Made by a program: the position numbers and the translations under genes. A DNA stretch of 33,219 bases from Paracoccaceae bacterium. GTDB taxonomy: Bacteria; Pseudomonadota; Alphaproteobacteria; Rhodobacterales; Rhodobacteraceae. Positions 943 to 20,830 of the stretch are shown here, piece by piece. The stretch spans positions 1 to 33,219 of the forward strand of contig WFQE01000342.1 of the NCBI GenBank assembly GCA_015487165.1. The letters are read 5' to 3'. Within the stretch, counting starts at the first letter, position 1, and every line of letters starts with the position of its first letter. The notes below the pieces were generated by a model, which worked only from the letters and a program-made list of their open reading frames with translations, was not told where the DNA came from and searched no databases.

Positions 943-963
943 GACAGGCGTGTGCTTTGGCAC

Positions 964-1689
964 CTAATCAAAGTCATCCGCACCACCATCGTCATAGTCG
1001 TAATCGACACCCATGTCGTCAGAGCCGATTGACTGCCCCATCACGACAAACGGCAGGGCCGACCCGTCTTCGCTGACCCGTCTGCCCTGATCGTCAAGAT
1101 AGACCTTGCGGCGCGCCTTCAGCGCCAGCGCGAACATGAGAACCGCAATGATGCCCAGCCCGCCGGCAATGGTCGTCGCAGCCATGACATCGCTTTGCGG
1201 CATGCCGCGGCTTTTCATGGAAAAGACGCCAAAGACCATGATGATCGCGCCAAGCAGAAAACAGAGAGAAAGAAACAGGACAATGCCGCCACGCCAGCCG
1301 AATTTTCGCTTTTCAAGCGGCGCTGCGCTGCGCGACACCACCGGTTTTGCCCTGCGAGGGGGCGTCTGCGCGGGCGGAGGAGGTGCGGCAATCGCTTGGC
1401 CGGTGGCCAGATCGGCCGCCTGTCGGGGGCTAAGTTCCTGCTCGGTATCAAGGCAGAAGATCGACCCGCCCTGCCCGACAAAACCAAAATCCCCCGCTGG
1501 CCCGCTGGTCGCGATATAAGGCGCGCAAGGGTCTGGCGTGTCGGGTGTATCCAACAAGGCCAGCTGGCGCATTGCCCCCAACAGTTGATCCGGCCCCAAC
1601 AGGCCGCGCGCCCGAACCTCGAAATCACCTGTTGCGGTCAGCCAGTCATCTGAAATACCTTGGGTTTCTATGGCTATTGTTGCTGTCAT
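964..1689 (-). CDS. Predicted membrane protein with two transmembrane helices, unknown function
   Basis: I do not recognise this 241-aa protein. Residues up to about 90 look like a soluble domain (it contains GLLGPDQLLGAMRQLALL), followed by a proline- and arginine-rich linker. Two hydrophobic segments follow, around GIVLFLSLCFLLGAIIMVF and ATTIAGGLGIIAVLMFALAL, and the protein ends in an acidic tail rich in Asp and Tyr. There is no clear signal peptide. I chose the ATG at 1689 because a GGGGGCC stretch precedes it and it lies 13 bp after the stop of the upstream gene; a TTG at 1722 would add 11 residues and overlap that gene. It is the last gene of the minus-strand operon starting at 8791 and converges on hslU. 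Role in the island is unknown; a membrane anchor for the exported proteins is only a guess. Confidence 0.75.
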   Translation of the reverse strand: MTATIAIETQGISDDWLTATGDFEVRARGLLGPDQLLGAMRQLALLDTPDTPDPCAPYIATSGPAGDFGFVGQGGSIFCLDTEQELSPRQAADLATGQAIAAPPPPAQTPPRRAKPVVSRSAAPLEKRKFGWRGGIVLFLSLCFLLGAIIMVFGVFSMKSRGMPQSDVMAATTIAGGLGIIAVLMFALALKARRKVYLDDQGRRVSEDGSALPFVVMGQSIGSDDMGVDYDYDDGGADDFD

Positions 1690-1702
1690 GATGGCCCCCA
1701 AA

Positions 1703-2221
1703 CTAGTTGCACGTATCCGCAACAGGCTGCACCTGCAGGCTGCGGGACATATGGGTCACAATTGAATCAAAGGCCTTTTTCTGGCTTGCCGGATATCGAA
1801 GAAACAGATGATGGGCGACCAGAGATCCGCAGCTACGGGTCATCAGAACCTTTTCATAAACAATGTCGCCCCCCAGAAACCCCGAATAGACAAACCAGTT
1901 TTTCTTGCCGGCGTTGTACACGATATCGACCCCGCCATCGCGCGCGTAGCCCAGCGTGTCGCGGCGGTAATCCCGCAGGTTATCGACCGTGACGGCAAGT
2001 GCGGCGAACACCAGTATTTCCGAGCGCCCGTCTGTCGAGAACCAGGCCCGGCCATCGCCGTTTTCCGAAGGCGGTTGCGCGACAAAACCCTGTGCGGGGA
2101 TATCGGCCGTCGTGCCAAAACGCGCGTTACTGTAAATCAGCCACTGTGCGGAACGGGCCACCATTGGTAACGAAATGATCGTCACAAGGGCGATCAAGAC
2201 CAGGATATGTTTGCGCATCAT
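1703..2221 (-). CDS. Small exported protein of unknown function (172 aa)
   Basis: This 172-aa protein starts with a clear Sec signal peptide: MMRK, a hydrophobic stretch and a probable cleavage site after ARSA. The mature part begins QWLIYSNARFGTTADIP, and resembles small exported proteins that are common in alphaproteobacteria and lack a known role. Two cysteines in the mature part (in TRSCG and near the C-terminus in DTC) could form a disulfide in the periplasm. The start is supported by AGGAG four bases before the double ATG. It lies 12 bp after the stop of the 870-aa gene and 13 bp before the next gene, so it is third in a tight four-gene operon. Confidence 0.8.
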   Translation of the reverse strand: MMRKHILVLIALVTIISLPMVARSAQWLIYSNARFGTTADIPAQGFVAQPPSENGDGRAWFSTDGRSEILVFAALAVTVDNLRDYRRDTLGYARDGGVDIVYNAGKKNWFVYSGFLGGDIVYEKVLMTRSCGSLVAHHLFLRYPASQKKAFDSIVTHMSRSLQVQPVADTCN

Positions 2222-2233: not shown

Positions 2234-4846
2234 CTATTGCGAGGACAGCTCGCTTGCGCCCATGCATTCGGCAGCAAGCCGCCCGCCAGGGCGGGCATTG
2301 GCGCACGACCCCGTTGCGGCCTTTGGGGTTTTTCTGACCGCTGCCTTTGCTGGTTTCGCCGCCTGCACGGGTCTGTTGACGGTCACCACCATCGTTTTTT
2401 CGGCGGTCGCCCCGGCCTTGTCGGTCAGGACAACCCTGAGTCGGTGGCTGCCTGTCTTGGAAAAGCTGGCGGTAAACTGTGCCTTGCGCCCGTCTGTCGC
2501 TTGGTGATCGATCTCGAACCCGTCTGCAAACAGCGAAAACAGGAATCCCGCCTCACCGCCAGTGGCGGTTGCTGTGATTGAGGTGTTTGCGCCCGGCAAT
2601 AATGTGCTGGGGTTAGCGACAAGCGAAACCGAAAGGGCGGCCGCGCCTTCTATATATATACGAAGTGGCACCTCGATACGGGTTTGCCGATCGAACACGG
2701 CAAGATCGACCCATTTGATCGACGCCTGGCCGGGGTCTGAAAATCGCTGAAAAAACCTGTTTCTGGCGGAATCCTTGTGAAAGGTCTGTCCTCCGTTCCG
2801 GGCCCAGCGCAGGGCGTAATCGCCGCTGCCGCCAATAACGCGCGCAAATACCACCAGCTCCCCACCATTGTCGGCAACGCTTTCAGTTTCGACCTCAAGC
2901 CTGAACGCAACGGGTATTGTCAGTCGCGTGTCCCCTTGCGCGCCGCGCGCATCTGTAACGGTCAGCTCGACATCTTGTTGGCCGGGTTTGGCAAATGTCA
3001 GTGGAATCGTGAAATTGCCCGTGCTTGTCGTTGCGTGACCGGCCGCTTTGCCGTTGATCTGCCAAGAAAGGTCGAACGGTGGTGAGGAATCCGGATCTAT
3101 GTGACCGCGCAAAGTGAAGGCTTGTCCGACCTCAACCCGATCCGGCGTCTTTACCGCGATGTTCAGCCCGACATCGAACTTGGCGCGGTGGCGGCTGATC
3201 GTCTGCTGCCAGCTGTCGATCACAAGGCGGTTGGATTCCATGTCGCCCAGCATAATCAGGTATTCCAGGCGCGCATCGGTGCCACCAAACACAAGCATCC
3301 GAAAACTGCGCTGCGGCAAGGAAATCTGCTGTCGTTCGACCAGAACATCCTGTTGAACAGCAAGGCGGATTTCCGCCCGCGTGCCTGCCAGATCAAGCCC
3401 GTCGGGCAAATCCAGCGTGCCGACGATGATCCGGGGATGAAAGCCATTCAGCTGTTTCAGGATTTCGCGGTTCTTTTCGATCATCCGGCCGTCGCCCAGG
3501 CGCGACAGAATATAGCGATAGTCGAACAGGACACGGTTGCGGTTCAGGCTGAAATGCTTGTCCAGATAGCTGTCGAATCCGGCCCCTACCCCGCTGCGGG
3601 TTTCAAGAATCTCGACCGCCCGTGCTTTCGTGACGTTTTCCGAGGCAAGTATATGTTTGAGACGTATCCATCTGTCCTGAATCTCTGTGCGCAGGGTTTC
3701 GGCATCGCCGTAATTGGCAGTAAATCCGCCCGGTATCCCATAAATGGCAAAGGCGGCGGGCACGTCGGTCTTGACGCCGGGGCTGGCCTTGGCAACCGTC
3801 TTGAGCATCTGAATGATCTTGCGAATGGCGGTAGCACCGCCAACGCCAGCGGGCGCCTTCAACCATTTTTTTCCGGTCCAGAAATACAACAGCCCCGGGT
3901 TTTCGAAATCGACATACAGATCCTTGATATCCCCCTCGGGACAGGCGGTGCCGGGATATTTGAATTTCACGCCGCGTTCGTTCTGCGCCAGCGTGACACC
4001 ATGTGTGCCGGTGCCGACACAGCCCATATCCCACCGCGCGATGATCTTTTTCAGCCGCAGTGTCGCGGCCAGCATTTCCTTGGCGGTGGACATGTATAGC
4101 GACACGAATTCGCCAAGAATTGGCAGGTTGCCCGCGGTCTGGTCGATCAGGCTGAACAGCGCCTCGGCCCTTGCGCCCGGCGCCTTGCCCTCGACCCCCT
4201 TGTAAATCGTGTCATACATTCCCCAATAGGTGCCCACGGGGGATTCCAGCACGCTGCGGATTTTCTGCAGGCGTTTTTCAAGCGCCTGAAAGCTGTCGAT
4301 ACCCGACCCACCAAGCCCGTATTCGCGCATCAGGTCGGTAAACTCGGTTTCACTTTTGATTGTTTCAAAGCGATCAGCGGCCTTTGTCAGGGCATCAAGG
4401 CGGGATTTGGCCCTGGCAGCAACCTTTTCAAGGTCGCCATAAATGGCTTGCACCTCGGGGCCTATGTATTTTCGGGCATGGTTGATCGCGGCAAAGGGCG
4501 TGCCGTTCCCCTCTTTTTCGACCGCCTTTTTCAATGCCTGCTTGGGGCTTTTCCCGGCCTTGAGCTGCTCTTTGAAGATCTTCATTGCCTTGGGATTGCC
4601 GCGTAGAAATGCGGCCATCAGGGTAAAGGCGCCGTCTTCCTTCCACTTGTCCGTGATGGCGTTGGATTTTTCCTCGGCCATGCCAAGAACCACCTGCAGC
4701 TCGTGGTAATACAGCCGTTCAAGCCGCGCTTGCAGAACGTTGGTATCAAGGGAAAAACTGGCCGCCGTGGCACAGCCGGCAGAAAATGGCGCAAGCCCGG
4801 GAAATGCCAGCACCATGACAACAAGAAGTTGGCGAAAGGGGTTCAT
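2234..4846 (-). CDS. Large exported protein: alpha-helical N-terminal half, three Ig/PKD-like beta domains at the C-terminus
   Basis: This 870-aa protein has a signal peptide (about residues 1-28). Cys25, in FSAGC, makes a lipoprotein possible, though the lipobox is poor. Residues about 30-290 are strongly helical and rich in Lys, Glu and Ala. A middle region (about 290-555) includes a segment with PGGFTANYGDAETLRTEIQ. From about 565 to 825 there are three successive Ig/PKD-like beta-sandwich units: one starting at RVEVGQAFTLRG, one at FRLEVETESVAD, and one at LSVSLVANPSTLLPG ending in LTDKAGATAEKTMVVTV. A low-complexity Ala/Lys/Pro tail follows, with two cysteines near the end. The start is supported by AGGAG upstream of the ATG. 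It lies 21 bp after the 1307-aa gene. Ig-like units in exported proteins usually serve binding or spacing, which suggests a surface or periplasmic structural role. No enzymatic motif was seen. Confidence 0.85.
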   Translation of the reverse strand: MNPFRQLLVVMVLAFPGLAPFSAGCATAASFSLDTNVLQARLERLYYHELQVVLGMAEEKSNAITDKWKEDGAFTLMAAFLRGNPKAMKIFKEQLKAGKSPKQALKKAVEKEGNGTPFAAINHARKYIGPEVQAIYGDLEKVAARAKSRLDALTKAADRFETIKSETEFTDLMREYGLGGSGIDSFQALEKRLQKIRSVLESPVGTYWGMYDTIYKGVEGKAPGARAEALFSLIDQTAGNLPILGEFVSLYMSTAKEMLAATLRLKKIIARWDMGCVGTGTHGVTLAQNERGVKFKYPGTACPEGDIKDLYVDFENPGLLYFWTGKKWLKAPAGVGGATAIRKIIQMLKTVAKASPGVKTDVPAAFAIYGIPGGFTANYGDAETLRTEIQDRWIRLKHILASENVTKARAVEILETRSGVGAGFDSYLDKHFSLNRNRVLFDYRYILSRLGDGRMIEKNREILKQLNGFHPRIIVGTLDLPDGLDLAGTRAEIRLAVQQDVLVERQQISLPQRSFRMLVFGGTDARLEYLIMLGDMESNRLVIDSWQQTISRHRAKFDVGLNIAVKTPDRVEVGQAFTLRGHIDPDSSPPFDLSWQINGKAAGHATTSTGNFTIPLTFAKPGQQDVELTVTDARGAQGDTRLTIPVAFRLEVETESVADNGGELVVFARVIGGSGDYALRWARNGGQTFHKDSARNRFFQRFSDPGQASIKWVDLAVFDRQTRIEVPLRIYIEGAAALSVSLVANPSTLLPGANTSITATATGGEAGFLFSLFADGFEIDHQATDGRKAQFTASFSKTGSHRLRVVLTDKAGATAEKTMVVTVNRPVQAAKPAKAAVRKTPKAATGSCANARPGGRLAAECMGASELSSQ

Positions 4847-4867: not shown

Positions 4868-7800
4868 CTAGTGAGTTCCGCTATCGGTCAGTTCGCCTGC
4901 CCAGTTGTAAGAAACGTATCGGCCCTTTTCCTGCCCGGCGACAAAGGTGGTGGTGCTTTGCATCATGACGGGGCCTTGTTCGGATTCCGAATAATAGACC
5001 TCCAGCCCGTCTTTCTTGCCGTTCCGGTAGGTTGTGCGCCGTGACAGCTGACCGTTCTGAAAACTAAGTGAAAGAATGATCTGCCCCGCGTTATCCCGAT
5101 ACTCCAGAAGTTCGAGGTTTCCGTCGTAATCATATTTCTGAAGTTGCGCCTCATGATCGGCAGTGGCTGCAACATTCAGAACACGGATCAATCCGGTTTC
5201 CGCGTCTACTTCGATCGGTGTCTTCAGATCCTTCCCGGCCTTGTAATGGGCGATCGTGGCAAGGCTTCCGTCCTCTCGATAGGTCCACATCGGGCCGTCA
5301 CGCTCGTCTTCCACGAATGTCCCGGCTTCACGCACGACCAGCTTGCCCGACCGATCAATGCCATATGCCATGTATGGCCCGTTTCGCTTGTCCGCGTGAT
5401 ATGTATCCCACCGGCCAATATGGGACCGGCCATAATAGACGGTCACCCCCTCGACCTTACCATCAACAAAAGCCTCTTTCTTGACCAGTTTTCCCTGTTC
5501 GTATTCGCGCTGAGTGCCGGAAAGCCGGTTGTTCTTGAAATAGGATTCACGCAGCAGGCGGCCTTGCTTGTCATAACAAGCGGTGCGGCCCTGTTTGATA
5601 AAGGTGTTGCCGCTTTTGGCAACCTGGGTGCCACGAACGCATTGTGGTGCGCCATTTGCGAAATACTCGTAAACCTGCCCATCCGGAACATCGCCTTTCG
5701 CAACTTCGCTGGCCGAAAACAGGCGATTGTTGTCATTGCTGAATCTCAGCAGAATCCGGTGACTGCCCTCTGACGGATAGGTCACCGTTTTGACCAGACC
5801 TGCACGATCAAAGGTGATGCGAAAGCCGGTTGTCTTGCCATCCACATATCTTTCAAGGCTTTCGCGCTTGAGCTCCACCCAGGCGTTCAACGGCGGGGCC
5901 TTGCTTTCATCGCCACCATAGAGGCTGTGAACCGCGCGGCCGTCCACCGCATATCCCTTTTTCATCTGTGGAACACCGGTCGCGGGATCCTTGGGATGAT
6001 AGGTGGAAACGCTGCCCCAGGGCTGAGCCTCGGTGATGCCCAGCGCGGATTTAACCTCGTCCATGGTCTTTCCGGCCAGCTCGACATGCTTCCATGATGC
6101 CGCGCTCGGGAAATTCCCCAACGCATCTGCCGGCGCATCCGGTTGAACCAGCGGCGGTTGAGCATCATCAAACATCGATGCTGGCCGAGCCAGAACCGCG
6201 GCCATGTCGCGTGCGTTTGGTACAGTGAGGTCCGGTGCGGGATACTGGCTGAACGGATCATCGGGCAATGGAGGAACTGCTATATTGATGAACGAATCCG
6301 GTCCGGTAGCCAATGTGGATTTGCCCTTGGTCTTGGTCCTGGGCACTGTTGGGGCTGCCGGAGCATCCACCACCCCAGATGCGGCCGGCGCTGGTGTCGG
6401 GGCCGGTGCGAAATCGGAAGGCACCGCCTCCTTTGATGCCTGCCCGTCAAGCGGTGTTCCCGTCAGGGGGCCAGCGCTGTCATCAACACGGCGTGCGCGA
6501 AAAACCTGCAGACCGGTTGACCCGCAGCTACCCCAGTTGCCCTCCAGAAGGGTACCGTTTTCCTTTAAGCGTGCTTCTATCTTGCCCCAATAGGCGCTAC
6601 CCAGCCGGTTGTGGTCGCAGGCCTGTCCCACTGGCCCGCTTTTGCCTGCCCAGATGCCTGTCAGCAGATCGCCAGATATTTCGCCCTGGAAAACTCCATT
6701 CGGGGTTTCAAAAGCGCCGTCAACCAGATCCCGGGCCTGATCGAACCTGACGGATGCAAAAGCGCCCTGTTCTATTTCCCAGACACCGGACAGACCCCGG
6801 GGTTCGGCAACCACAGGATCCGTGGTCTGAACTGATGCAGGCGGGGTCTGTGGCGCAACAGGGGCGGCCGGCAAAGGGGCCGCGGGCTTTGGCGGCGCTA
6901 CCGGTTGCGGCGCGGCCGGCTTGGTCTTTCTGACGGAAACCCTGTCTTGGGCCGCGATCCGATAGGCGCCGTTTGGCCAGTCAAGATATAGCCTGACAAC
7001 ATAGTCACCTTCGGGCAACGCACGAAAGCTGTGCCTGCCGCTGGTCGGGCTGCCGTCCAGCATGACCATATCGAAATACTGCTTTGGGCCTTGATCCACA
7101 CCTGCAATGGCCAACCAGTCCTGCCCCCTGCCCGACAACCCGTCAAAGGTAACCTCGATCCTGGCACCTGGCGCAAAAACTCTTTGCGTTGCGGCGATCG
7201 TCGGACTGCCCGCGCTGACCTTTGCCGGCGCGGCGGCCGGGCCGGGCTGTTTTTCAGCCGCTTCACGCACGATGATGGCTCGCTGGAACAGGGTTTTCTT
7301 GAACTCCTGATCCTGCATACGGATCAGATACTTGCCTGGCTTTGTGGGGGCTGTGAAATTCAGCGTGCCGGTGACGCTGTTCTTGAGATACTGCTTTCCT
7401 ATCAGGATCTTGACCTGTTCCTGCGAAATGTTGCGGGGGGTTCGGGGCCCGACAATGGCGACCCAGTTGTAATAGCTGTAGTTCGGGGATGCCCGGTAAT
7501 TGACCACGAATGCCTGGCCCGGATCCAAAACAGAGCCCGAAGGCAGCGCAAGATGGGCGCTGTCGGTATCGATCGTGATCCGCACCGGCTTTTCCGCAAG
7601 CAGCGCCCCGTTATAGCGGTCGTACATCCACAAACGATAATCGCCCAACATGCGCGGCACTTCGACCGTGACGGCGCCCGCTGTTCGCGCAGACATCGTT
7701 ACCTGCGCAAAATGACTGGGGGTCGGTGAGGGTGCTGCATCATCCGCGACAAAGCCGATCCACGATGCGGGGTCCAGCCCCGGTTCGGCCGTAAATTGAA

Positions 7801-8791
7801 TATCGATCTTGTCGCCTGGGTGCAGGATGGTACGTCCCTGCTTGGAACGGAAATCACCCATGAACTGCATGCTGTTCCAACGGTTTCCACTGGTCGTATT
7901 CGACGCGGATGCGGTCTGGCGCTGTTTCTTCAGCATCTCATCCAGATGTTTACGCGCCTTTTTGTGGCCTTGCGCCGCCGCCTTGCGAAACCATTTTATC
8001 GCCTCGGCATCACTCTGTGGAACTCCTTTGCCATTACGATAAAGCAGGCCCAGATTGTTCTGCGCGTTCTTGTTTCCTTGTTCGGCCGCTTTTCGTATCC
8101 ACTGTGCCGCGATGCGCCTGTTCTTGGTCACCCCATAGCCACGATAATACAACACCCCCACCCGATTCTGGGCTCTAGCATCCCCCGCCTCGGCCAGAGG
8201 CATCCATTCACGCAAGGCACCCGCGTAATCCTTGTTCTTGTAGGCCTTGAGGCCACGGACAAAATCGGGTGCCGGCGCTGTTTTGGTCAGATAGCTGTCT
8301 GCGCAATCCATCAATAGGTTGATGGCCTTGCGGGTTCCTCTCAGCGGAAAGGACTTGTCGCCAAAAGGCGTTTGCATGGTGATCCGGTTGCCTGCCTGCA
8401 CGGATTCGACCGAGGGCTCATCAAGGCCGAAAACGTAATCGATCATGGTCGGGGTGGCGACCAACGCTTCAATCCCTTGGTCAAACAGGTTGTCTATGCG
8501 CACACGGCTGATGAATTTGTCACCTGCCTTCAGCTTCCACCTCTCATTGAAAAGCCCGATATGCAAACCCAGCCCGTTCCAGATCAGCAGGACATAAACA
8601 TCTGCGCTTTTGGCGCGCGCGACCAGATAACAGTTTAGCGGGGCACCATTGTCATCCCCCTTTACCCCGCCCTGCCAGATCCCCGATTTCAGTGGGCGCA
8701 GGTCCGACCCCGCCGTTGCGGACGTTGTGAAAACAAGAAACGAGAGAAGGGCAAACAGCAGGTTTTTCGACAGGCGGAAAGGGTCGGTCAT
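4868..8791 (-). CDS. Exported mosaic protein: Sel1 repeats, beta-sandwich repeats and C-terminal MORN-like repeats (1307 aa)
   Basis: A signal peptide (about residues 1-28, ending ATAG) is followed by an N-terminal domain (about 35-165) beginning SGIWQGG. Two to three Sel1-type TPR-like repeats occupy about 185-285, with units such as AQNRVGVLYYRGYGV and AQNNLGLLYRNGKGVP; these usually bind proteins. Three beta-sandwich units follow (about 305-410, 412-510, 530-622), each with a PG...Y/F pattern and a strand such as YRLWMYD, YLIRMQD or YVVRLYLDW. After a Pro/Ala linker, a domain at about 667-768 opens LSGVWEIEQG. From about 1040 to the end are repeats of the MORN_2/YwqK type (for example GQVYEYFANGAPQC and YREDGSLATIAHYKAG). 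The start is supported by GAGG nine bases before the ATG. It is the first gene of the left island operon. I do not recognise the full architecture; a scaffold or binding protein outside the cytoplasm is my inference. Confidence 0.86.
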   Translation of the reverse strand: MTDPFRLSKNLLFALLSFLVFTTSATAGSDLRPLKSGIWQGGVKGDDNGAPLNCYLVARAKSADVYVLLIWNGLGLHIGLFNERWKLKAGDKFISRVRIDNLFDQGIEALVATPTMIDYVFGLDEPSVESVQAGNRITMQTPFGDKSFPLRGTRKAINLLMDCADSYLTKTAPAPDFVRGLKAYKNKDYAGALREWMPLAEAGDARAQNRVGVLYYRGYGVTKNRRIAAQWIRKAAEQGNKNAQNNLGLLYRNGKGVPQSDAEAIKWFRKAAAQGHKKARKHLDEMLKKQRQTASASNTTSGNRWNSMQFMGDFRSKQGRTILHPGDKIDIQFTAEPGLDPASWIGFVADDAAPSPTPSHFAQVTMSARTAGAVTVEVPRMLGDYRLWMYDRYNGALLAEKPVRITIDTDSAHLALPSGSVLDPGQAFVVNYRASPNYSYYNWVAIVGPRTPRNISQEQVKILIGKQYLKNSVTGTLNFTAPTKPGKYLIRMQDQEFKKTLFQRAIIVREAAEKQPGPAAAPAKVSAGSPTIAATQRVFAPGARIEVTFDGLSGRGQDWLAIAGVDQGPKQYFDMVMLDGSPTSGRHSFRALPEGDYVVRLYLDWPNGAYRIAAQDRVSVRKTKPAAPQPVAPPKPAAPLPAAPVAPQTPPASVQTTDPVVAEPRGLSGVWEIEQGAFASVRFDQARDLVDGAFETPNGVFQGEISGDLLTGIWAGKSGPVGQACDHNRLGSAYWGKIEARLKENGTLLEGNWGSCGSTGLQVFRARRVDDSAGPLTGTPLDGQASKEAVPSDFAPAPTPAPAASGVVDAPAAPTVPRTKTKGKSTLATGPDSFINIAVPPLPDDPFSQYPAPDLTVPNARDMAAVLARPASMFDDAQPPLVQPDAPADALGNFPSAASWKHVELAGKTMDEVKSALGITEAQPWGSVSTYHPKDPATGVPQMKKGYAVDGRAVHSLYGGDESKAPPLNAWVELKRESLERYVDGKTTGFRITFDRAGLVKTVTYPSEGSHRILLRFSNDNNRLFSASEVAKGDVPDGQVYEYFANGAPQCVRGTQVAKSGNTFIKQGRTACYDKQGRLLRESYFKNNRLSGTQREYEQGKLVKKEAFVDGKVEGVTVYYGRSHIGRWDTYHADKRNGPYMAYGIDRSGKLVVREAGTFVEDERDGPMWTYREDGSLATIAHYKAGKDLKTPIEVDAETGLIRVLNVAATADHEAQLQKYDYDGNLELLEYRDNAGQIILSLSFQNGQLSRRTTYRNGKKDGLEVYYSESEQGPVMMQSTTTFVAGQEKGRYVSYNWAGELTDSGTH

Positions 8792-8963: not shown

Positions 8964-8980
8964 GGCAGAAAGGGGTGATC

Positions 8981-8995
8981 TGGCCAACTTGGCCA
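8981..8995. promoter_or_regulatory. 15-bp palindrome, possible operator
   Basis: TGGCCAACTTGGCCA is a perfect inverted repeat of 7 bp around a central C. It lies about 190 bp upstream of the 1307-aa gene start, in the only sizeable non-coding stretch of the island. A binding site for a dimeric regulator is possible, but no regulator gene is in the window. Confidence 0.35.
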
Positions 8996-9220
8996 CTGTA
9001 TGAACAATAGCGTTTACCAAACAAAACCCTCGACACTACGCCCGAGGTCCAGAACATCAATGAAATGTGGTCGCAATAATTGGCGGCGCTGTCATGCCAC
9101 TGAATAATCCAGCCTTCCCCTACTACTGCACAGAGTTCGTTCTTGTGCAAATCTTTTCTTCCGGTGCGCGTTCGCGTAAATGGGTCTGCGCTGGACTGTA
9201 CGTGTGGTCAGGTCACAGAA

Positions 9221-9535
9221 TTATTCACCGACACAAGGCCTTAGCCTGTTTGTCGACTCTTTCAGATCTGCCCTGATACGAAGACCATATTGTTCTGCTT
9301 CGGCGTCGGATTCGTCCATCTTTCCAAGCGGGTCGATTCCAGCGCCGGCGGCTCTGGCATCCTTTGCCAGTTTATCCATCGTTTCCGTTGTCTGTTCATA
9401 ATCGTACCGCTGGATCAGATATCCCATGAATTCGGTAAGAACCATGAACGCTTGTTCGCGAAAGATCTGGCATTCCCCCGAATTGCTACTGTTCATCAAC
9501 ACGCGGTTGGCGGTATAAACCAACTCCAGATCCTC
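9221..9535 (-). pseudogene. Truncated C-terminal remnant of a homologue of the 2913-aa island protein
   Basis: On the minus strand the frame reads from the hslU remnant junction to a TAA at 9221. The product begins [15 protein letters not shown] and ends NRLRPCVGE. It aligns by eye with the last ~75 residues of the 2913-aa protein: [12 protein letters not shown] with DVELFNAARRLI, EC-QIF with [15 protein letters not shown] with YLKDRQYFEQ, RIRADLK with QVRANLK, and C-VGE with C-GGG. The fragment carries an internal insertion of about 20 residues relative to it. Everything upstream is missing because the frame runs into antisense hslU at 9536. I therefore read it as the 3' end of a once much larger gene, cut off when the hslU remnant was joined here. 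A TTG at 9523 could start a 100-residue product, but it has no good ribosome site. Confidence 0.72.
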
Positions 9536-9697
9536 GGTGCGCGGCGGCTGTACACAGTGATGGAGCGCGTGTTCGAGGAACTCAGCTTTACAGCCCCCGA
9601 CAAGGCCGGCGCAAAGGTCACGGTCGATGCCGCCTTTGTCGAAAAGAACCTCGGCGACCTGTCGCGCTCGACCGACCTCAGCCGCTATGTGCTATAG
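9536..9697 (+). pseudogene. hslU: hslU 3'-end remnant (right copy of the direct repeat)
   Basis: These 53 codons plus TAG encode exactly the same residues as the end of the intact hslU ([16 protein letters not shown]... to SRYVL). The nine base differences are all synonymous. The first codon matching hslU is GGT at 9536; the sequence before it is unrelated to hslU and is antisense to the truncated gene 9221-9535. No start codon or ribosome site serves it. A longer open frame beginning at 9290 is a chance fusion. After the stop the sequence differs from that after the intact gene. It most likely marks the former boundary between hslU and the 2913-aa gene. Confidence 0.93.
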
Positions 9698-9769
9698 GGT
9701 TGGCACGCCTTGGCCGGGATCAATGTCATTCGCAGGCATTACTGATGTTCGCATGCCCGGACTGAAACT

Positions 9770-12700
9770 TTAGCCGCCTCCACAAGATTTCACCAATTCC
9801 ATATTCCGTTTCAGATTGGCCCTGACCTGGCGGCCAGGCTGACTCGGCGTGTTCGCCTGTTCAAAATATTGCCTGTCTTTCAGGTAATATGTGAACACCA
9901 CGAGATTCGAATACAGCCCAGAGGTGTAGATTGTGCAAGCGAGCGTGTTGGGCGCAGTTGAAATCAGACGCCTTGCAGCATTGAACAGTTCCACGTCCCG
10001 AGGTGGCGTTCCGGGCGGTAAGGGAGGCAAATCAAAAGTCCGTGGTGCTGGAGGTGTCGGCGCGGTCGGAATTTGCACACCAGGGACAGCGGGCAGGGCC
10101 GGTTGCGGTCCGTTTCCGGGCAGAACGGGGTTGAAATCGGGCACTGGCCGGGGTGTGAACGGAACAGGGGTTTTCGGCGATACGCGCCCTTGCGGTGGCT
10201 GTCCCGACCGGGCCGCATCATTGCTCTGGGTGCTGTTTGCATCCGGCGGCTGGCCAATATCACCCCTTGATGCCGCGCCCTCGTCATGTATCCGTTTGGC
10301 CTTCAACAAGGGAGCCCATTTCCCGGTGTGGATGATTTTGCAGCCTTTCTCCAAGCCCAGCATCTCGACGCGGGAATTGATTGCCTCGCCCCCATCCACC
10401 AGCCAGGCCTCGAACCGGGCTTTCGCACGTTTCGGGCCACAATCGGGGGATGTGGTGAAGGGTATGAACGCCGTTCCGGTCAGCTTGCCGTCCTTCACGA
10501 CCCCTTCGTAAAATACATCTCCGACTTTCCAGCCAAACTTCAGGTCTTCCGGCGTGGCCTTTACGATCACGCCCTTTATCACGTTTCCTTCACGGACATG
10601 TCTTATCACAGCGCCGCGCCATCCCAGCCAAAGCCCCTCAAAGCCCGCGCCCCGTGTTTCCCGCGGCGTTTCGCCTTTGGGGGCGGCAGGTGCGGGTGGC
10701 GTTCCGGGAATGACCAGTTGCGGCATGGCGGGTGCCGGTATGCGAACTGCCGGTGCAGGGGGCGCCGCGATTGCTGTCTTCGGCCTGGCATCGTGAACAA
10801 CCCTGACCACCAATTCGATCTGTTCCCCCTTGGGCAGCGGGGCCTGACCAACTTGTCGCCCACCCTTTTGCGGTTGCGCATATCCGATGATGCGGCCGCC
10901 AAGTATCACCTGGCCATTTCCCAGCACCTCGACAGCCTGGGGCGGGGTAACAAGAATATCTGGCGGCACCTCGGGCGAAAACCAGATCTTGCCGGTCGGA
11001 TCTTTCTGCAAATGACCAATAATATGCCCTTTGGCATCCCGAACCGCACCACCCTCTGCCGCATCGGCGGAATCGTGTCGTTTTCCACCCGCTGATGGTT
11101 TGGCTTTCGGCCCCAGCTTGCCGATCTTGTGGTCGCCAAGAACCACCGATCCATCTGCTGCAATTTCCACCTTTTGGGGGGGCGTTACCATGACGCCCTC
11201 GGGAACATCGGGACGGAACCATTTTTGCCCGTTCGGATCGGTTTCAATCCAGCCCAGGACATTCCCTTCGGCATCCAACACGGGCCGTTCGCCACCATCG
11301 GTGCCCTGGTCTGGCATTGCCGCGTCGGTTTTTTCCTTTTCCGCCCGGGGCGGGCTGGGCGGCGCCTTGCGGCTTGCGCTGTTGGGCGCGGCCGCCTTGT
11401 TGGCCGGGCCAGTTGCGCCGGATCGTGCCGCCCTTCCGGTCATGCCTTGGTGCTTTGTCTGTCTGCGCGCGGTGCGACCTGCGCTGCGGCCTGCGGAATT
11501 GGCAGGTGGCGTGGCTTTCGGCGCGGCGCCCAAAGGTCTTGCGCTTGCGGGAACGGCCCTTCCGATCTTGCGATAGGGCGTAACGATACCCCCGCCCTTC
11601 AACAGCTGAACCTTCTGCGGGGGCGGCGGCGGAGAGCCGGGCATACCCAGCGGCTGAAACCATGCCTGGCCGTTGGGGTCGCGATAGACCCAACCGTTCT
11701 GGTTGCCATCGCCGTCCACGACCTTGTGCCGTTCGCCCCGTGCATTTGCCTGCTCATGATCACGCTTGTCATCTTTCTGCCCACCGGCCGGGCCAGGGCC
11801 TGCAGCGCGAGGCCCGTGTGTTTCGCCCGTCGTGCGCCTGCCGCCTGTCGGTTCGGTGCTGATCTCTTTTGCCTTGGGTTTCGGTGGGGGTTGTTTGCGG
11901 GGTTGAACAATCGAAAGAGGCGCTTGTTGATATACCTCGCCCGTCAGCCACTCCATCGCCTTGCGCACATCGCGGGCAAATTCGGCTGCCTTTTGTCCGG
12001 GCAGCATTTCAGCAAGTTTTTCGGTATTGCCGCGGTTCTTTTCGACCTTCACCGTCAGTTTGACCAGATCCTCGATTCGGTGAAGATCGACCCCGGCAAG
12101 ATGCGCCGCGTCCAGCATTCTGAGAAAGTATTTCGACAACTTGCCGGCCAGCTTGACCGCTTTTGCGGGGTTCTTCTCATACCCCTGATAATGGGAATAC
12201 TGGTGCAACAGATATCCAAGCTGTTCAAACAATGACTGGCGTGCCTCGTTTTTGGTCATCGGCACTTCCAGCTTTTCGGTTTTGCCGCTCAGCAGGCTGT
12301 TCGACGTGATCTTGCGGCCCACCATCTGAGTGTTGAAAACGATGTGGTTGATCGCGGCCTCGGTCAGATAGGCCTCGCTGGCGAAATACAGCGCCTTGGC
12401 CTGGGTGTCACGAATCTGCTGTGCGATTCTGCTGCGCTCGGCATCTGTTTTCGCCTTGGCAAAATTTTCCCGCAGCTCGATGATGCGCTTGAGAGACCTG
12501 CCATACAGCGTATTGGCCGCATAGATCCTGGCGTTTTCATCCCCACCGGCAGACAGTTTTTCCAGCTCGCGCTGGGCCTCGGCATAGCCTTGTTCAACCC
12601 GGTCCAGAATATCGCGCATCTGGGCCTTTTTTGCGCCTTCCAGCGCGTCAAGCACACGGTTGCGGTGGGCCTGCCATTCGGCATCGGTAGCATAGCGGCG

Positions 12701-15700
12701 CACGCCCAGCTGGGCGGCTGTTTCCTGTGAAACCACGTCTTTGTCATTTCCGACATATTCGCGATAGCGGGGATAGGTATAAACATTCGTATCAAGCCGT
12801 CCGGCGGATTCCACGCCGCCGATGGCAAAGGCCTTGCCCCAACGCGAGCGAAATCGGTCGTTGAACAAAAGAACCGCAAGCTCGGCCTTTTCGCCCTTGA
12901 AGCTGAGGTCGTAATCGCTGGTCAGATTGACAGATCCCACCGCATCCCACAGTTTTTCGCGGGCCATTCGGTCGATCCCATAGATGTTCAACACCACCTC
13001 ATTTGCCAGCGCATCGACGATTTCCTTGCGGATCTGGGTCAGCTCTCGCATCGTGTCTTTTGGCACCTTTCCGGCCTTGAATGCATCGACAAGCTGATGC
13101 CAGTCGCCGTTGTAATCTTTCATGAGAACCTGAAGCGCACTTTCCCTTTCGGCCTGGCGTCTTTCCCGGTCGCGGGCATTTTCACGCGGGGTTGCGCCCC
13201 CTTTCAATACATCCAGCGCCTTGTTGAACGGCAAGCCGACTGCCTTGAGCTCGGCCAGAAAAACCAGGTTCCGCAGCAGGCCTTCGCCGTTGACGGGGGT
13301 TCCATTGAAAACGCGGTCTATCGCCTGAAGCGTCGCGGCCTCGACGCCCACCTTGCCCGCACCACCCAACAGGAACCAACTCCATTCCCGGGGCGTCACC
13401 TCGCGTAGCTGCGAGAGCGGCATATTCATGATATCTTCAGCACCATAACGCAAAGGAGCCCCGTCGCGCACCGTTTCGCCAAGCCTGGTCGCGCCCAGTC
13501 CCGACAGCTGCAGGCCGCCCATGACAACAACATTGTGGGCATAGTCCTTGAGCCAGGTCTTGAGATTCCAATAATCCTTTTCCAAGGCAAGCGAAGGGTC
13601 CAGCATCAGCGCGCCGGCGCGGCTGTAGCCGGTAAAAAACGCGGCCTCGACCCCAAGTCGCCCAAGCGCATTCATGGCGATCCATCGGCTGGCGACATAT
13701 TCGGTGGCAGCAAAGGAAAGGCGCCCGGGGATGATGACTGTCAACAAGGTCTCGGCCGCGCTTTTGGCATTGACGAGGTTATCCAGCGCCGTGCGCTTGC
13801 TGGCCTTGTCAAGATCGGTGCCCGCGTGAAATACAAACCCGCGGGGAATGACATATTTCGTGCGGGTTTTACCCTCTTTGATGAATCCCTGTCGTTTCAG
13901 CAGGTCATATGCGCGGCGGTTCCTCTGTTTCAGTTCCTTTGCCGTCAGTCGCGAAGCCGCCTTGAGCGCCGCATTGAAGCTGCCGGTTTCGTTGATCTGC
14001 CTGGTGAACCGGTCAAGAACCTTGTCATAGCCCCACTCACTGCCAAGCCCGAGATATCCGCTGGCAAGGTAATAGGCCTGCGATGCCCCCAAACGGTACC
14101 ACGGCGTTTCAAGGTACTTGTTATAGCTGGCCAACCCCTTGTCGAGCTCGATATCCTGAAGCCCGGCAAGAAGGGCAAAGAACTTTTGCGGGTTGGCGCG
14201 CTGGCTTTCGGTTATCAGCCGATCAATCAAGGTTGGCGTTTCGCCATATCGCAAGTCGCGCTCAAGCTTTTCGGCATAGGCGCGCTGATCCCTGCCCAGA
14301 TCGAAAGGCCCATATGACAGGCGTTTTCCTTCGCCCTTCCAATAGGATTTTTCGCGGTTCAGTTCGCGCAGATAGGCCGCGACGTTTTCAGATGGATCGC
14401 GGTTCGGGTTTTCCAGAATCACGGCGCGGCGTCTGGCCCTGAGATAGCGCAGACGATCTTTCAGGATGATCGCCGTCAGCCCGCTGTCATCGTCGTCGGT
14501 AAACAGCTGCTGCAGGATGCCGTTTTTGCGCAGCCTTTCGTTCGGGCGATCAGGGCGGCCGTTTATTTCATCAAAGATTTTGCGCGCAAGCTGTTCCCGC
14601 GGGGTGCGGATACCGTTGAAGCGGGGATGAAGTTTCAGCAAGAGATCAACCACGGCGTCTCGTTCGGCGCGCAGGATATTCAGCTCGACCAGCTTGAGCA
14701 TCACCCTTTGCCGCAGATAGCTGGCTGCCTCGGTCGGGTCGCCCGACTTGCCCTTGAGGGCGTCAAGCTCGCGCTCGGCTTGCCAGATTCTTGCGTTCAG
14801 TTTGCCCCGGCGCCTTTCAAGGCCGTCGCGGTCAGTCCTGCCGAGTTCGAGTTTCCGCCGTTCCAGCCGCCGAAGCCGTTGCAGCGCGGCAAGCTGTTCG
14901 TTGCGCAGCCGGGCCAACTTTTTCGCCGTTTCGCCGCTAGAAGTTTCGGGCAGGGCAATGATGGCGTTGCCCGTCTTATTGACGATGGTTTCACGTTCCG
15001 CACTTATCAACTTGTCCAGGGCCCGTGCGTATTTCTTTTTCAGTCGGGCGCGGAACTTTGCCAGTGCCTTGCGCTCGGTCTTGTTGATCTTGTGCAGATT
15101 TTTCCTTTCCTCGGGGCTTATCAGCGCCAAAGCCGCAAGTTTTTCCTTGCTGATCGGGCGCTCGAGAATCACGTCGCCAAGGAATATGGGCAGATCGCTT
15201 TGTATCTGCCGGTTCACCAACCGCAGCATGGCGGCGATCAGCGCGCGGCTGCGTTCGTCACTGCCTTCGCGTTCAAGGATTGTGAGCACCCTTTCAAACG
15301 CCTTGGCCGCATTGGCGATATTGCCCTTGCGGAACTGTTCGAATGAAACCTTGATCAACTTGTCGATGTCATATGTCCGTGAAAGATCGCCATATTCCAG
15401 CCGGGCCCGCGCTTTGGCTCTGCTAACCAGAATTTGCATGGCCGATCGGGCAAAACTGATGACGCCTGCATATCGTGCCCGCTCTTTTTCAGGCAGGCGG
15501 TCGATCCAATAACGCAGGTTGGAAACAACCCGGTCGATTTCGGAATTGGATATTGATGAGACGTCGGCCAGCAGGGTGTCGGGATCATTCAGGGAATAGT
15601 GGCCTATATATCTGCGATAATGCGCAATCGCCGCGCGGATCAGGCGGTTTCTTGCGGTTTCGTCCTTTTCCCTTCTCAACATCCGCCAGAACAGGCTGTC

Positions 15701-18511
15701 GGCGGCAAGGACCAGATTTTTTCGCGCGTCCGGCCTTAGATCGGCGGAAAAGATCAGCTGGTCAAGCGCGACAAGCGTTTCCGGGCTGCCGCCAATGATG
15801 CGTTCCAGAACATCGGCGCGCTTGCGCGGGGCAATCTTTCCCGTGGGCCATTTGCCCAGCGCCTCCCACGCGGCAAGAAGGGGGGGTATGTTTTCATCGT
15901 TTTCGCGGACCTCGGCCAACATGCGATCAAGAATCTCTGACGCCTTTTTCCGGGAATCAGGGGCGCCCTGTTGCCAAAGGGTCAGCGCGGCCTTCAGCTT
16001 GTCCCCGCCCTGCGTTTCGGGATCGTCGATTATCCTGATCAGCGTGGCGTCGATACCGTTGCGGATTCTTTCGGAAACGGTTTTGCCCTGCCCATGCAGA
16101 ACAATGATGCGCCGTTCCGCCGGTGTCAGCAGACCCTGATGTGCCTTCAGGTCGTTTAAAGCCAGCAACTGCAGCGCACGGGCGCCCAGCCTGATAGTGG
16201 CATCGCCGTCCTGTTCGGCCAGACTGGCCTGAGCAAGGGCGCTTGCCCTGTCACCAGCCAGCAGAAACGCGCGCGCTGCTGCCAGGCGCAGTGCCGAAAC
16301 CTTGTCGTCCGGCGCATTCGCCAGATCGGCCTGGGCAACCAGCCCTTTGGCCAACGCATGTGCGATCAACCCCGACACCCGACGTGCAAAGGGCGACTCG
16401 GCGCGCCCGGCAAGCATGATCAGCTGGCGGAGTTTTTCGGCATGTTGGTCCCAAAAGGCGTTCGCCGCCTTTATATCCTTCGGGGCCTTTTGGCTTGTCA
16501 GTTTTTCAAGTTCTGCAACGGTTTGTGCAATCCGGTTTTCCTGATCGAGGCGACTCTTGCCATTTATCAGGCTTGCCTTCAGCAACTGGAGCTCGGTCAG
16601 ATCATAGGCCGAGCGCAGCTTTCGCCCTGTTTTCAGGCGGGCCCTGATATTGCTGATCTGTTTGTCCAGCGCCTTCAATGCGCTTTCGCGCAAGGGCGCC
16701 ATATCTGCAGGTTTCATACCCCACAACCTGGCGCGGTCGGGGTCTCTCAGAATGGCCGTTATGATCCGCAAATAATCCTGTTCGATCCTCTTGTTCAGGC
16801 TTGAGCTGGAAGAAATGTTGTTCCTGATCCAGTCTCGCAAGAACCCCAGAAACCCAACCGGCGACTTGCTGCCATGCTGTTGATTGAAATCGGCAATGAT
16901 CCGGTCAACGGTATCACTACCAACCGCGCGCTCAAAAAACACGATCAGTTCCGCGATGGGCGGTATCGGAGGCTGCGGGCGGTCGCGGTACAGTTCCTTG
17001 ACAAAGGCGGCAAGTTTGAGCCGCCGGCGCTGTTCGCGGGCCAACGCGCGCGCTTTGGGCAACCCCTTGCGTGCCTCGGCCAGTGCTGCCCTCAGGCGAT
17101 CAAGGCGATCAAAGTGGCGGGTCTGCTGTTTCCGCAGCTTTTCCCAGCGTTCTTCGAGCTTCCTGACCTGCTGGTTGATCTCTTTTTCTTTGGAAAAGTC
17201 CCTGCTTTTGAGCAGCCGAATGATCTGCGCGTGAATCCGGTTTTTTTGCCGTTGCAGATCTCGAATTCTGAAACGGGCGATCGATCTTGCCTTTTCCAGC
17301 GCCTTGATATGGTCAAGCGCGGCCTGTTCTGCATCCAGCGGCCTGGTGGTGGCGGGCGTCCGGGTGGTTTCGCGGGGCCTGGCGGGCGCGTTGTCAGCCT
17401 CAACGACTGGCGTAGTTGTCTCGTGGGCTGCCGGCCGCTTCAGACTGCCGATTCTGCGCCCTGCCCACATGATCGTGCCATCGGGGAATCTTTCGACAAG
17501 CTGGGGCTCGGCGGGCATCGCGCCAGGTGGGGCTTGTGGGGCAAGATAGCTCCGCCCGTCGGGCCCGGTCATCAGATGGCCGATGATCTGTCCGTCATTT
17601 CCGTAAACCGGCTTTCCTGCCGGATCCTCAATGGCGGGCTTTGCGGGGTGGGGCGTCGCAGGTTCCTCCGACGCGATTTTCCCGATTCCGATGGTGCCCC
17701 AGACGATATGACCACCGGGCAATATCTCGACGCGCTGAGGTTCGGCCGGCATCGCGCCCGCAGACGTTTCCGGGGTGAACCAGGCGGCGCCAGTGGGATC
17801 TGTTTGAACATGGCCGACAAGCCGACCGGCCTTGCCCAGAACGGGCTTTCCCAAGGGGTTTGGTTTTTCTTGCGCCGCGTCAACACTCAGGCCAGGTGCC
17901 TTGCCGATGGGTGTTCCGCCGGTCACGGTGCTGCCCTCGGGCAGCCGGGCAACACTTTCGGGGCGCTTGTTCGGATTTTTTGGGATCAACAGCTTGCGGC
18001 CTGTCTGCCCGGTTTTTATCGCGCCCTCGTCAACCTTTTGCACCGCTGTGTAGGGGGTAGAGGAAATAACCTTTTCAATATGGCTGCGTATTGCGGCCCA
18101 GCTTTCGGTATCATGACAGGGTTGAACGGTTTTTCGCCCCGGCGCCGGAACGGTAATTGCGGGGTTTGCGATTATCCTGATGCCACCCGTTTTCTGCAGT
18201 GCATCGCGCAGATCCAGCCCCAACAAGGCTGGGCGCAAGCTGTAGGGGGTTTTTTCGAGCTTGGCCTTCAGCCGGGCGATCGCCTGGCCAAGATCGCCCT
18301 CGATACACACCCATCCCTGAAGGTTAAAAGTAACTGGATGCGGTTTGTCGGGAGGGACGGTGAACACGACCTCGGCCCTTCGAGCGGGGGCCTGCACGAC
18401 CTCGGAGCCTGCAGGGACCGAAAAACCGAGGGTGACCGCGATAACAGCCAACGACCAAGATGTTCTGGCCTGCCTTCGCGAAAGACAGCTATTTCCAGAG
18501 CCTTCCTTCAC
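9770..18511 (-). CDS. Giant exported repeat protein of unknown function (2913 aa)
   Basis: Starts at a GTG preceded by AAGGAAGGGG, 33 bp after the 250-aa gene. The N-terminus has a basic stretch (SRRQAR), a hydrophobic core (SLAVIAVTLGF) and a likely cleavage site near residue 35, indicating export. Two copies of a repeat of about 58 residues lie at about 222-280 and 300-358. A long charged helical region follows, with coiled-coil-like heptads at about 390-520. The very long centre is alpha-helical and rich in Arg, Lys and Glu, with a more hydrophobic glycine-rich stretch (13250-13800). A segment near residue 1860 (AVGSVNLTSDYDLSF, later LDTNVYTYPRY) resembles nucleotidyltransferase metal-binding motifs. 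Three more repeats occupy 10873-11731. After them come a domain opening FEGLWLGWRGAV, a Pro-rich linker, and a C-terminal domain (DVELFNAARRL to CGGG) that is also found, truncated, at 9221-9535. The overall family is not one I recognise. Confidence 0.85.
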   Translation of the reverse strand: MKEGSGNSCLSRRQARTSWSLAVIAVTLGFSVPAGSEVVQAPARRAEVVFTVPPDKPHPVTFNLQGWVCIEGDLGQAIARLKAKLEKTPYSLRPALLGLDLRDALQKTGGIRIIANPAITVPAPGRKTVQPCHDTESWAAIRSHIEKVISSTPYTAVQKVDEGAIKTGQTGRKLLIPKNPNKRPESVARLPEGSTVTGGTPIGKAPGLSVDAAQEKPNPLGKPVLGKAGRLVGHVQTDPTGAAWFTPETSAGAMPAEPQRVEILPGGHIVWGTIGIGKIASEEPATPHPAKPAIEDPAGKPVYGNDGQIIGHLMTGPDGRSYLAPQAPPGAMPAEPQLVERFPDGTIMWAGRRIGSLKRPAAHETTTPVVEADNAPARPRETTRTPATTRPLDAEQAALDHIKALEKARSIARFRIRDLQRQKNRIHAQIIRLLKSRDFSKEKEINQQVRKLEERWEKLRKQQTRHFDRLDRLRAALAEARKGLPKARALAREQRRRLKLAAFVKELYRDRPQPPIPPIAELIVFFERAVGSDTVDRIIADFNQQHGSKSPVGFLGFLRDWIRNNISSSSSLNKRIEQDYLRIITAILRDPDRARLWGMKPADMAPLRESALKALDKQISNIRARLKTGRKLRSAYDLTELQLLKASLINGKSRLDQENRIAQTVAELEKLTSQKAPKDIKAANAFWDQHAEKLRQLIMLAGRAESPFARRVSGLIAHALAKGLVAQADLANAPDDKVSALRLAAARAFLLAGDRASALAQASLAEQDGDATIRLGARALQLLALNDLKAHQGLLTPAERRIIVLHGQGKTVSERIRNGIDATLIRIIDDPETQGGDKLKAALTLWQQGAPDSRKKASEILDRMLAEVRENDENIPPLLAAWEALGKWPTGKIAPRKRADVLERIIGGSPETLVALDQLIFSADLRPDARKNLVLAADSLFWRMLRREKDETARNRLIRAAIAHYRRYIGHYSLNDPDTLLADVSSISNSEIDRVVSNLRYWIDRLPEKERARYAGVISFARSAMQILVSRAKARARLEYGDLSRTYDIDKLIKVSFEQFRKGNIANAAKAFERVLTILEREGSDERSRALIAAMLRLVNRQIQSDLPIFLGDVILERPISKEKLAALALISPEERKNLHKINKTERKALAKFRARLKKKYARALDKLISAERETIVNKTGNAIIALPETSSGETAKKLARLRNEQLAALQRLRRLERRKLELGRTDRDGLERRRGKLNARIWQAERELDALKGKSGDPTEAASYLRQRVMLKLVELNILRAERDAVVDLLLKLHPRFNGIRTPREQLARKIFDEINGRPDRPNERLRKNGILQQLFTDDDDSGLTAIILKDRLRYLRARRRAVILENPNRDPSENVAAYLRELNREKSYWKGEGKRLSYGPFDLGRDQRAYAEKLERDLRYGETPTLIDRLITESQRANPQKFFALLAGLQDIELDKGLASYNKYLETPWYRLGASQAYYLASGYLGLGSEWGYDKVLDRFTRQINETGSFNAALKAASRLTAKELKQRNRRAYDLLKRQGFIKEGKTRTKYVIPRGFVFHAGTDLDKASKRTALDNLVNAKSAAETLLTVIIPGRLSFAATEYVASRWIAMNALGRLGVEAAFFTGYSRAGALMLDPSLALEKDYWNLKTWLKDYAHNVVVMGGLQLSGLGATRLGETVRDGAPLRYGAEDIMNMPLSQLREVTPREWSWFLLGGAGKVGVEAATLQAIDRVFNGTPVNGEGLLRNLVFLAELKAVGLPFNKALDVLKGGATPRENARDRERRQAERESALQVLMKDYNGDWHQLVDAFKAGKVPKDTMRELTQIRKEIVDALANEVVLNIYGIDRMAREKLWDAVGSVNLTSDYDLSFKGEKAELAVLLFNDRFRSRWGKAFAIGGVESAGRLDTNVYTYPRYREYVGNDKDVVSQETAAQLGVRRYATDAEWQAHRNRVLDALEGAKKAQMRDILDRVEQGYAEAQRELEKLSAGGDENARIYAANTLYGRSLKRIIELRENFAKAKTDAERSRIAQQIRDTQAKALYFASEAYLTEAAINHIVFNTQMVGRKITSNSLLSGKTEKLEVPMTKNEARQSLFEQLGYLLHQYSHYQGYEKNPAKAVKLAGKLSKYFLRMLDAAHLAGVDLHRIEDLVKLTVKVEKNRGNTEKLAEMLPGQKAAEFARDVRKAMEWLTGEVYQQAPLSIVQPRKQPPPKPKAKEISTEPTGGRRTTGETHGPRAAGPGPAGGQKDDKRDHEQANARGERHKVVDGDGNQNGWVYRDPNGQAWFQPLGMPGSPPPPPQKVQLLKGGGIVTPYRKIGRAVPASARPLGAAPKATPPANSAGRSAGRTARRQTKHQGMTGRAARSGATGPANKAAAPNSASRKAPPSPPRAEKEKTDAAMPDQGTDGGERPVLDAEGNVLGWIETDPNGQKWFRPDVPEGVMVTPPQKVEIAADGSVVLGDHKIGKLGPKAKPSAGGKRHDSADAAEGGAVRDAKGHIIGHLQKDPTGKIWFSPEVPPDILVTPPQAVEVLGNGQVILGGRIIGYAQPQKGGRQVGQAPLPKGEQIELVVRVVHDARPKTAIAAPPAPAVRIPAPAMPQLVIPGTPPAPAAPKGETPRETRGAGFEGLWLGWRGAVIRHVREGNVIKGVIVKATPEDLKFGWKVGDVFYEGVVKDGKLTGTAFIPFTTSPDCGPKRAKARFEAWLVDGGEAINSRVEMLGLEKGCKIIHTGKWAPLLKAKRIHDEGAASRGDIGQPPDANSTQSNDAARSGQPPQGRVSPKTPVPFTPRPVPDFNPVLPGNGPQPALPAVPGVQIPTAPTPPAPRTFDLPPLPPGTPPRDVELFNAARRLISTAPNTLACTIYTSGLYSNLVVFTYYLKDRQYFEQANTPSQPGRQVRANLKRNMELVKSCGGG
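10873..11731 (-). repeat. Three C-terminal copies of the DPxGxxWFxP repeat within the 2913-aa gene
   Basis: Protein-level repeats of about 58 residues lie at roughly 11555-11731, 11111-11290 and 10873-11049. Shared features are a D-x-x-G turn, G-[HW]-[LVI], DP[TN]Gx[KAI]WF.P, a P-P-Q-x-V-[EQ] strand, and a closing [KR][IK]IG. The copies differ enough that they are old rather than recent duplications, and Pro/Ala/Lys-rich linkers separate them. Confidence 0.85.
17438..17848 (-). repeat. Two N-terminal copies of the same repeat within the 2913-aa gene
   Basis: Copies at about residues 222-280 (GHVQTDPTGAAWFTP ... MPAEPQRVEILPGG ... IGIGKI) and 300-358 (GHLMTGPDGRSYLAP ... MPAEPQLVERFPDG ... 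RRIGSL). The sequence around residues 190-207 (LPEGSTVTGGTPIGKAPG) looks like the tail of a further, incomplete copy. Confidence 0.85.
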
Positions 18512-20731: not shown

Positions 20732-20830
20732 AAACACCCCCTAGCAACAATCATTAGATATTCTACCAGTAACACAGGTATTCTTGTCGCCAGATCGGGC
20801 TTTGTCGAGTCAAAAGTTACCCAGGGTCAA

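Follow-up and report, generated by a model that had tools for sequence, protein, structure and literature searches.

A displaced giant-protein tail joined to a second hslU end in a marine Paracoccaceae genome is probably a recombination scar

The window, a stretch of 33,219 bp that makes up the whole of contig C342 in the genome of a marine Paracoccaceae bacterium (G000; draft, 3.4 Mb, 359 contigs, 4.5% contamination), contains two gene ends joined to each other beside a gene for a 2913-aa giant protein: the C-terminal domain of a second giant-family gene and the last 165 bp of a second hslU. We propose that this segment is probably a recombination scar, a hybrid of two haplotypes produced by one homologous and one illegitimate crossover. 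The features on which this reading draws are given below; the name hslU was taken from the first-pass annotation together with the sequence.

1..942, plus strand: hslU, 3' 313 codons, with the 5' part off the contig start (Pfam AAA_2/AAA; 99% identical protein in the relatives G001 and G002); presumably the intact, working copy
779..943, plus strand: hslU tail copy 1 (last 165 bp), direct repeat D1
964..1722, minus strand: 252-aa protein (ORF), last gene of a four-gene block and convergent with hslU, with one probable membrane segment judged by eye; homologues in G006 and G009
1703..2221, minus strand: 172-aa block protein (ORF); homologues at other loci in G006 and G002
2234..4846, minus strand: 870-aa PKD/Ig-like block protein (Pfam PKD)
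4868..8791, minus strand: 1307-aa Sel1-repeat protein (Pfam Sel1), first gene of the block; homologues at other loci in G003, G009 and G006 (N-terminal part)
9221..9535, minus strand: the fragment, C-terminal domain of a second giant-family gene, displaced and lacking its N-terminal side (profile homology)
9534..9548, no strand: the joint, readable as giant tail (P-P-R-T-E) or as hslU (sequence comparison)
9534..9698, plus strand: hslU tail copy 2 (remnant, last 165 bp), 95% identical to 779-943
9770..18511, minus strand: gene for the 2913-aa giant protein, 79% identical to that of G002 (2404 residues) and 57% to that of G085 (2928 columns)
9773..10000, minus strand: C-terminal domain of the giant, ~76 residues, the family of the fragment (profile and structure prediction)
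18545..19297, minus strand: 250-aa protein, neighbour of the giant in the same order in G002 and G085, and present in G001 without the giant
19346..20737, minus strand: 463-aa VWA protein (Pfam VWA), whose C-terminal half resembles the 250-aa protein

Beyond the VWA gene lie Smr, MltA and Tim44 genes. Downstream of the fragment, 429 bp precede the 1307-aa Sel1 gene, and this gap holds an 85-aa frame with a TTG start (8893-9150, minus strand) that has no Pfam match and no relative in the loci of the compared genomes. No Rfam family falls within 8700-9800, and in 8700-9850 one promoter-like site (shuffle mean 0.6) and one terminator-like site (shuffle mean 1.3) were counted, about equal to shuffled sequence.

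The minus-strand frame at 9221-9535 is open over 104 residues plus a stop and shares homology with the final ~76 residues of the 2913-aa protein. Specifically, a profile of three giant C-termini (window, G002 and G085), with the fragment left out, scores the fragment at 27.6 bits (E 6.8e-8 across 474 window segments), where only the giant itself ranks higher; the segment that follows stands at E 1.6, and the best score among 5,000 shuffled fragments with the same profile is 10.6. In leave-one-out profiles the fragment scores 26.6 bits, the window giant 25.5, the G002 giant 29.5 and the G085 giant 12.9, and in each case none of 2,000 shuffles reaches the true score (best shuffles 8.1 to 10.2, with 8.1 for the fragment). 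The match to the last ~75 residues that the first-pass annotation had reported from the letters is thus confirmed as significant profile similarity. The pairwise match is weak: BLASTP against the last 700 residues gives 28.5 bits (E 4e-5, composition correction off), used as a lone query, the fragment fails to match the giant of its own genome at E 0.01, and the C-terminal piece of the G002 giant yields no BLASTP match either (best E 0.72). The tails share a pattern of [R/E]D-x-x-L, then C, then F-x-x-x-L, a spacer of variable length and a final C followed by three to six residues, and the two cysteines of the fragment, C22 and the near-C-terminal C101, align with both cysteines of the three giants. 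The fragment has a G+C content of 50% (third positions 55%) versus 59% (66%) for the giant gene. It matches nothing in Pfam or NCBIfam, and a weak Cas8a match (E 0.008) was taken as chance.

The fragment is most likely a gene remnant, because no free-standing gene with the giant C-terminal domain was found in 389 genomes, its own included. Its frame continues as antisense hslU up to 9691 and is not attached to a giant protein, which marks it as a remnant rather than a working member of the domain family. Additionally, the first start in the frame is a TTG at 9523, inside the conserved beginning of the domain; having no start before the domain, the frame is probably not a working gene. In line with this, the earlier description of the fragment as a truncated C-terminus of the giant family is upheld by the profile match and by the search of the 389 genomes. 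That the fragment is instead a complete small gene in its own right is extremely improbable: the frame is indeed intact and free of stops, but in the 389 genomes the domain is otherwise seen only at the ends of giant proteins (G000, G002 and G085, all in the profile by construction), two weak partial matches apart, and the position of that TTG speaks against it as well.

The C-terminal domain of the giant family spans ~76 to 110 residues and carries two conserved cysteines separated by a spacer of variable length. For the window version, structure prediction gives four helices (pLDDT 79), one cysteine lying where the second helix begins and the other where the fourth ends, an order from which we infer that the two cysteines may pair as a disulfide. 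A Foldseek search with the tail of the window giant returned no match at E <= 0.001 (best E 0.7), and of two PDB sequence searches one gave a single match at E 0.55 and the other none. In the VIA structure comparison, six chains reach Z >= 8, the top one being 3rgu_A (Fap-NRa; Z 9.6, rmsd 3.1, 75 residues); judged from the predicted model, these matches may reflect only a common helical-bundle arrangement. Neither Pfam nor NCBIfam gives a match above cut-off for the giant protein, whose middle is predicted at a pLDDT of only 35. Within a well conserved part of it, residues 1859-1870 (window 12902-12937; G-S-V-N-L-T-S-D-Y-D-L-S) are reminiscent of a nucleotidyltransferase signature. Between the window and G002, 18 of 74 tail residues are identical versus 79% across the first 2404 residues, and identity declines gradually through the Pro-rich linker that precedes the tail (13 to 14 of 34 to 37 aligned residues per 40-residue bin). 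In this sequence comparison the last ~76 residues vary far faster than the body.

The middle of the giant is present in two of 10 genomes of the genus (the own genome and G002), in two of 394 family genomes (the own genome and G085) and in one relative (G002) in the genome_contigs set, and it is absent from the plasmids searched. The domain search of the 394 family genomes found G000 and G085 only. A four-copy profile run over 389 genomes, the own one included, matched G000, G002 and G085, by construction since all are in the profile; the other 386 genomes gave two weak partial matches, in other families (E 0.001 and 0.004).

At the other side of the joint, positions 9534-9698 repeat 779-943 at 95%, and similarity to hslU ends left of 9534. 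The fragment is thus cut exactly where hslU sequence begins, just as had been noted from the sequence. Here two unrelated genes, hslU and the giant, meet. Antisense hslU reads AGCCGCCGCGC-G-CCGA in copy 1 and AGCCGCCGCGC-A-CCGA at the joint. In protein terms, the fragment reads P-P-R-T-E-D at this place, the giants of G002 and G085 read R-P-E-D and the window giant reads P-P-R-D, so that R-T-E-D at the joint agrees with the Arg preceding P-E-D in the G002 and G085 giants. At 9538 the joint has a T, unlike hslU copy 1 and seven of eight relatives (all but G007), and this base may derive from the giant side. The dual-readable stretch covers about 8 to 16 bases with one mismatch to hslU copy 1, and some or all of it may have been shared with the giant gene of the donor (giant'). 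Because this short stretch fits both genes, its sequence makes it a good candidate for the site of an illegitimate crossover. A short shared sequence guiding the exchange had been suggested before, and a joint readable as either gene is compatible with this suggestion.

The two hslU tails differ at nine of 164 positions within the repeat, and all nine differences are synonymous; a tenth, at 9533, lies outside the repeat. At four of the nine sites (tail positions 22, 43, 46 and 145) the copies agree with different relatives, one with G001 and the other with G002, whereas copy 1 alone departs from both relatives at three sites and copy 2 alone at two. Because four sites side with different relatives, and because a neutral remnant so old should show amino-acid changes, the tail sequences suggest that the two tails derive from two lineages, in each of which the tail was once part of a working hslU. 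The argument from silent changes is weaker than it appears, as the remnant need account for only two to six of the nine changes; those in the working copy would have been silent in any event, and an old in-place duplication is therefore only made unlikely. A P value of 5e-6 to 7e-5 for the silent changes was discarded, since it treats all nine as unselected. The differences are unevenly placed: the copies differ at eight of the first 60 sites, where either copy differs from G001 or G002 at 4 to 8, and at one of the remaining 104 (Fisher P 0.0015, an optimistic value since the split was chosen after seeing the data), and G001 and G002 differ from each other without such skew (6/60 and 12/104). 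Later conversion or crossover between the tails would explain this skew and may have made their last 105 bp near-identical. Divergence at four-fold sites between G001 and the window is 0.20 in hslU, against 0.38 to 0.69 in those downstream genes for which a match was found. The low value in hslU was rejected as a breakpoint, as the upstream 228-aa (0.21) and 841-aa (0.25) genes are equally low between G001 and G002 (other upstream genes 0.32 to 0.56), and is taken as conservation or codon bias.

The same locus in relatives supplies the likely starting order. In the sister species G002, hslU is convergent with the giant gene, with 7 bp between the stop codons and neither block nor fragment between them; the giant gene of G002 is split over two contigs, the second of which goes on with the 250-aa, VWA, Smr and MltA genes. 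G001 has the order hslU-250-VWA-Smr-MltA, without giant and without block. In G085, of another genus, VWA, 250-aa and giant genes lie together on an 18-kb contig that has no hslU match. In six genus members with both genes on one contig (G003, G004, G006, G007, G008 and G009), hslU and MltA are 0.7 to 2.7 kb apart, a distance that leaves no room for the block; neither gene was found in G005 (77% complete). In the gap between hslU and Smr of other genus members (L058 and L060), G007 and G009 carry a transporter-like gene and G009 also a small toxin-antitoxin-like pair, all named by eye.

Homologues of block genes occur elsewhere: 1307-like genes in G003 and G009, the N-terminal part of the 1307-aa gene with the 172-aa and 252-aa genes in G006, the 172-aa gene in G002 and the 252-aa gene in G009. 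A locus in which hslU is followed by the block and a giant gene was found in none of the nine other genus genomes. The first-pass annotation had called for genomes in which a complete giant gene adjoins a homologue of the 1307-aa gene; none turned up, the 1307-like genes of three genus members being at other loci and without a giant tail nearby (the G009 contig does not extend to the upstream side). On five stretches with block homologues, four of which reach a contig end, the giant tail domain gave no match at E <= 1. A full homologue of the 870-aa protein was found neither in the nine other genus genomes nor, apart from the own genome, in the 394 family genomes, two of which match at all: the own genome and, in part, G253 (27%, ~216 residues, E 6e-9), a match set aside as it sits in a 1325-aa protein of other build. 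In genome_contigs this protein gave 24 pattern matches with no relative among them, and in plasmids none. The 1307-aa query against 100 family genomes found mostly Sel1-repeat matches (56/100) and was not used for counts. Separately, contig 10 of G006 (L091, 5041-10808) holds a variant of the block in which a lipase-like protein replaces the 870-aa protein; this variant ends near an IS110-type transposase at the contig end.

We propose that two haplotypes existed downstream of hslU in related lineages. Type I would be hslU followed by giant-250-VWA-Smr, as observed in G002, and type II, which we infer, would be hslU followed by 252-172-870-1307-giant'. Type I is favoured as the original state because the sister species has that order. 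The window would then be a hybrid, type II on its left as far as the point where the giant' tail domain begins and type I on its right from about the last 54 codons of hslU onward. A homologous crossover would have taken place in or upstream of hslU, and an illegitimate one probably in the short GC-rich stretch where antisense hslU and giant' can both be read (P-P-R-T-E-D). A linear incoming piece, joined by homology at hslU and illegitimately at its other end, would yield exactly this structure, leaving a second 165-bp hslU tail and a broken giant' tail with hslU itself intact. The first-pass annotation had also placed hslU-giant first, which G002 supports; it had further assumed that nearly all of a second giant gene was lost, a step that becomes unnecessary, as the incoming piece may have ended inside giant'.

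The converse polarity gives the same product and the same joint. Here the resident locus would be hslU followed by block and giant', and an incoming giant end with its hslU tail, joined by homologous exchange within or past the giant body and by illegitimate exchange at the joint, would have replaced the tail of the giant and displaced the old one. The tail being far more variable than the body suits such a replacement, and an old tail left next to a full gene is reminiscent of orphan Rhs modules (PMC3967940). The main argument against this order of events is that type I, as in G002, makes the simpler ancestor. Moreover, four-fold divergence between the giant genes of the window and G002 is spread over 0.26-0.46 (blocks of at least 17 sites, one 4-site block end omitted) without a clear breakpoint, and the gradual fall of identity in the linker suits fast evolution as well as exchange. 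Overall, this divergence is 0.35 for the giant versus 0.15-0.29 in the other genes compared, which may reflect weaker codon bias or another source. We regard replacement of the tail as unlikely.

The remaining explanations are less probable still. Duplication of the hslU end in place within one lineage, with or without rearrangement of a block-giant locus and followed by drift, requires no donor, agrees with the single difference in the 3' 104 bp of the tails and leaves changes in the working copy silent regardless; nevertheless, the first 60 bp stand at a species-level distance while the remnant shows no amino-acid change, and the copies side with different relatives at four of nine sites, so that we hold it to be very unlikely. 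A mobile element that inserts site-specifically at the hslU 3' end and brings its own hslU tail typically leaves an intact gene and a far displaced tail with silent differences, much as seen here. The four block proteins include no integrase family by Pfam, NCBIfam or PHROGs, the window has no tRNA, and block homologues occupy other loci in relatives, which together leave this explanation with very little probability. A chimeric join of two strains during metagenome assembly is conceivable, given a fragmented draft of 359 contigs with 4.5% contamination that is likely a MAG like the relative G002, and given two strain-like hslU tails on one contig. However, the dual-readable stretch at the joint is only about 8 to 16 bases, and usual assembly words are longer; we therefore consider a chimera highly improbable.

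Among known systems, the e14 and phage 21 insertions in icd duplicate the 3' end of the gene with silent differences, and phage-like elements use some protein genes in this way. The hslU case is alike in its duplicated 3' end and silent differences, but has no recognised integrase or phage genes and no apparent attachment core. The literature searched yielded no evidently related report on hslU as an integration site of genomic islands. The closest process is homology-facilitated illegitimate recombination (PMC3240628); in the present case it is read from one natural sequence. As for the marks of such a recombination product, hslU would be shared at one end, similarity to hslU stops at 9534 at the other, and neither the donor haplotype nor a donor genome was found. 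Orphan Rhs C-terminal modules (PMC3967940) are alike in being start-less C-terminal fragments downstream of a full gene with a different tail. They differ from the arrangement here, which has no recognised immunity gene and no toxin match, has tails homologous to each other, and has hslU sequence rather than shared core in front of the fragment. It is tempting, though quite doubtful, to regard the tip of the giant as a fast-exchanging part that strains swap by recombination involving the giant gene and convergent hslU, leaving displaced tips behind; such a tip-switching system, an equally doubtful element of the same reading, would stand outside the known Rhs/CDI families.

The scar, on the favoured reading of a two-haplotype hybrid, is of an ordinary kind and unusually legible: it would show, in readable form, an entire gene cluster becoming part of a genome next to a housekeeping gene, and one of its joints can be located nearly to the base. 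The scar also draws attention to the giant family itself, which lacks any Pfam or NCBIfam match above cut-off and whose last ~76 residues change far faster than the remainder. On the far side of the giant gene, at 18545-20737, the C-terminal half of the VWA protein and the adjoining 250-aa protein are similar, with cross-matches of 47.8% and 42.3% in G085; from their sequences, the pair looks like a tandem duplication to which a VWA domain was added.
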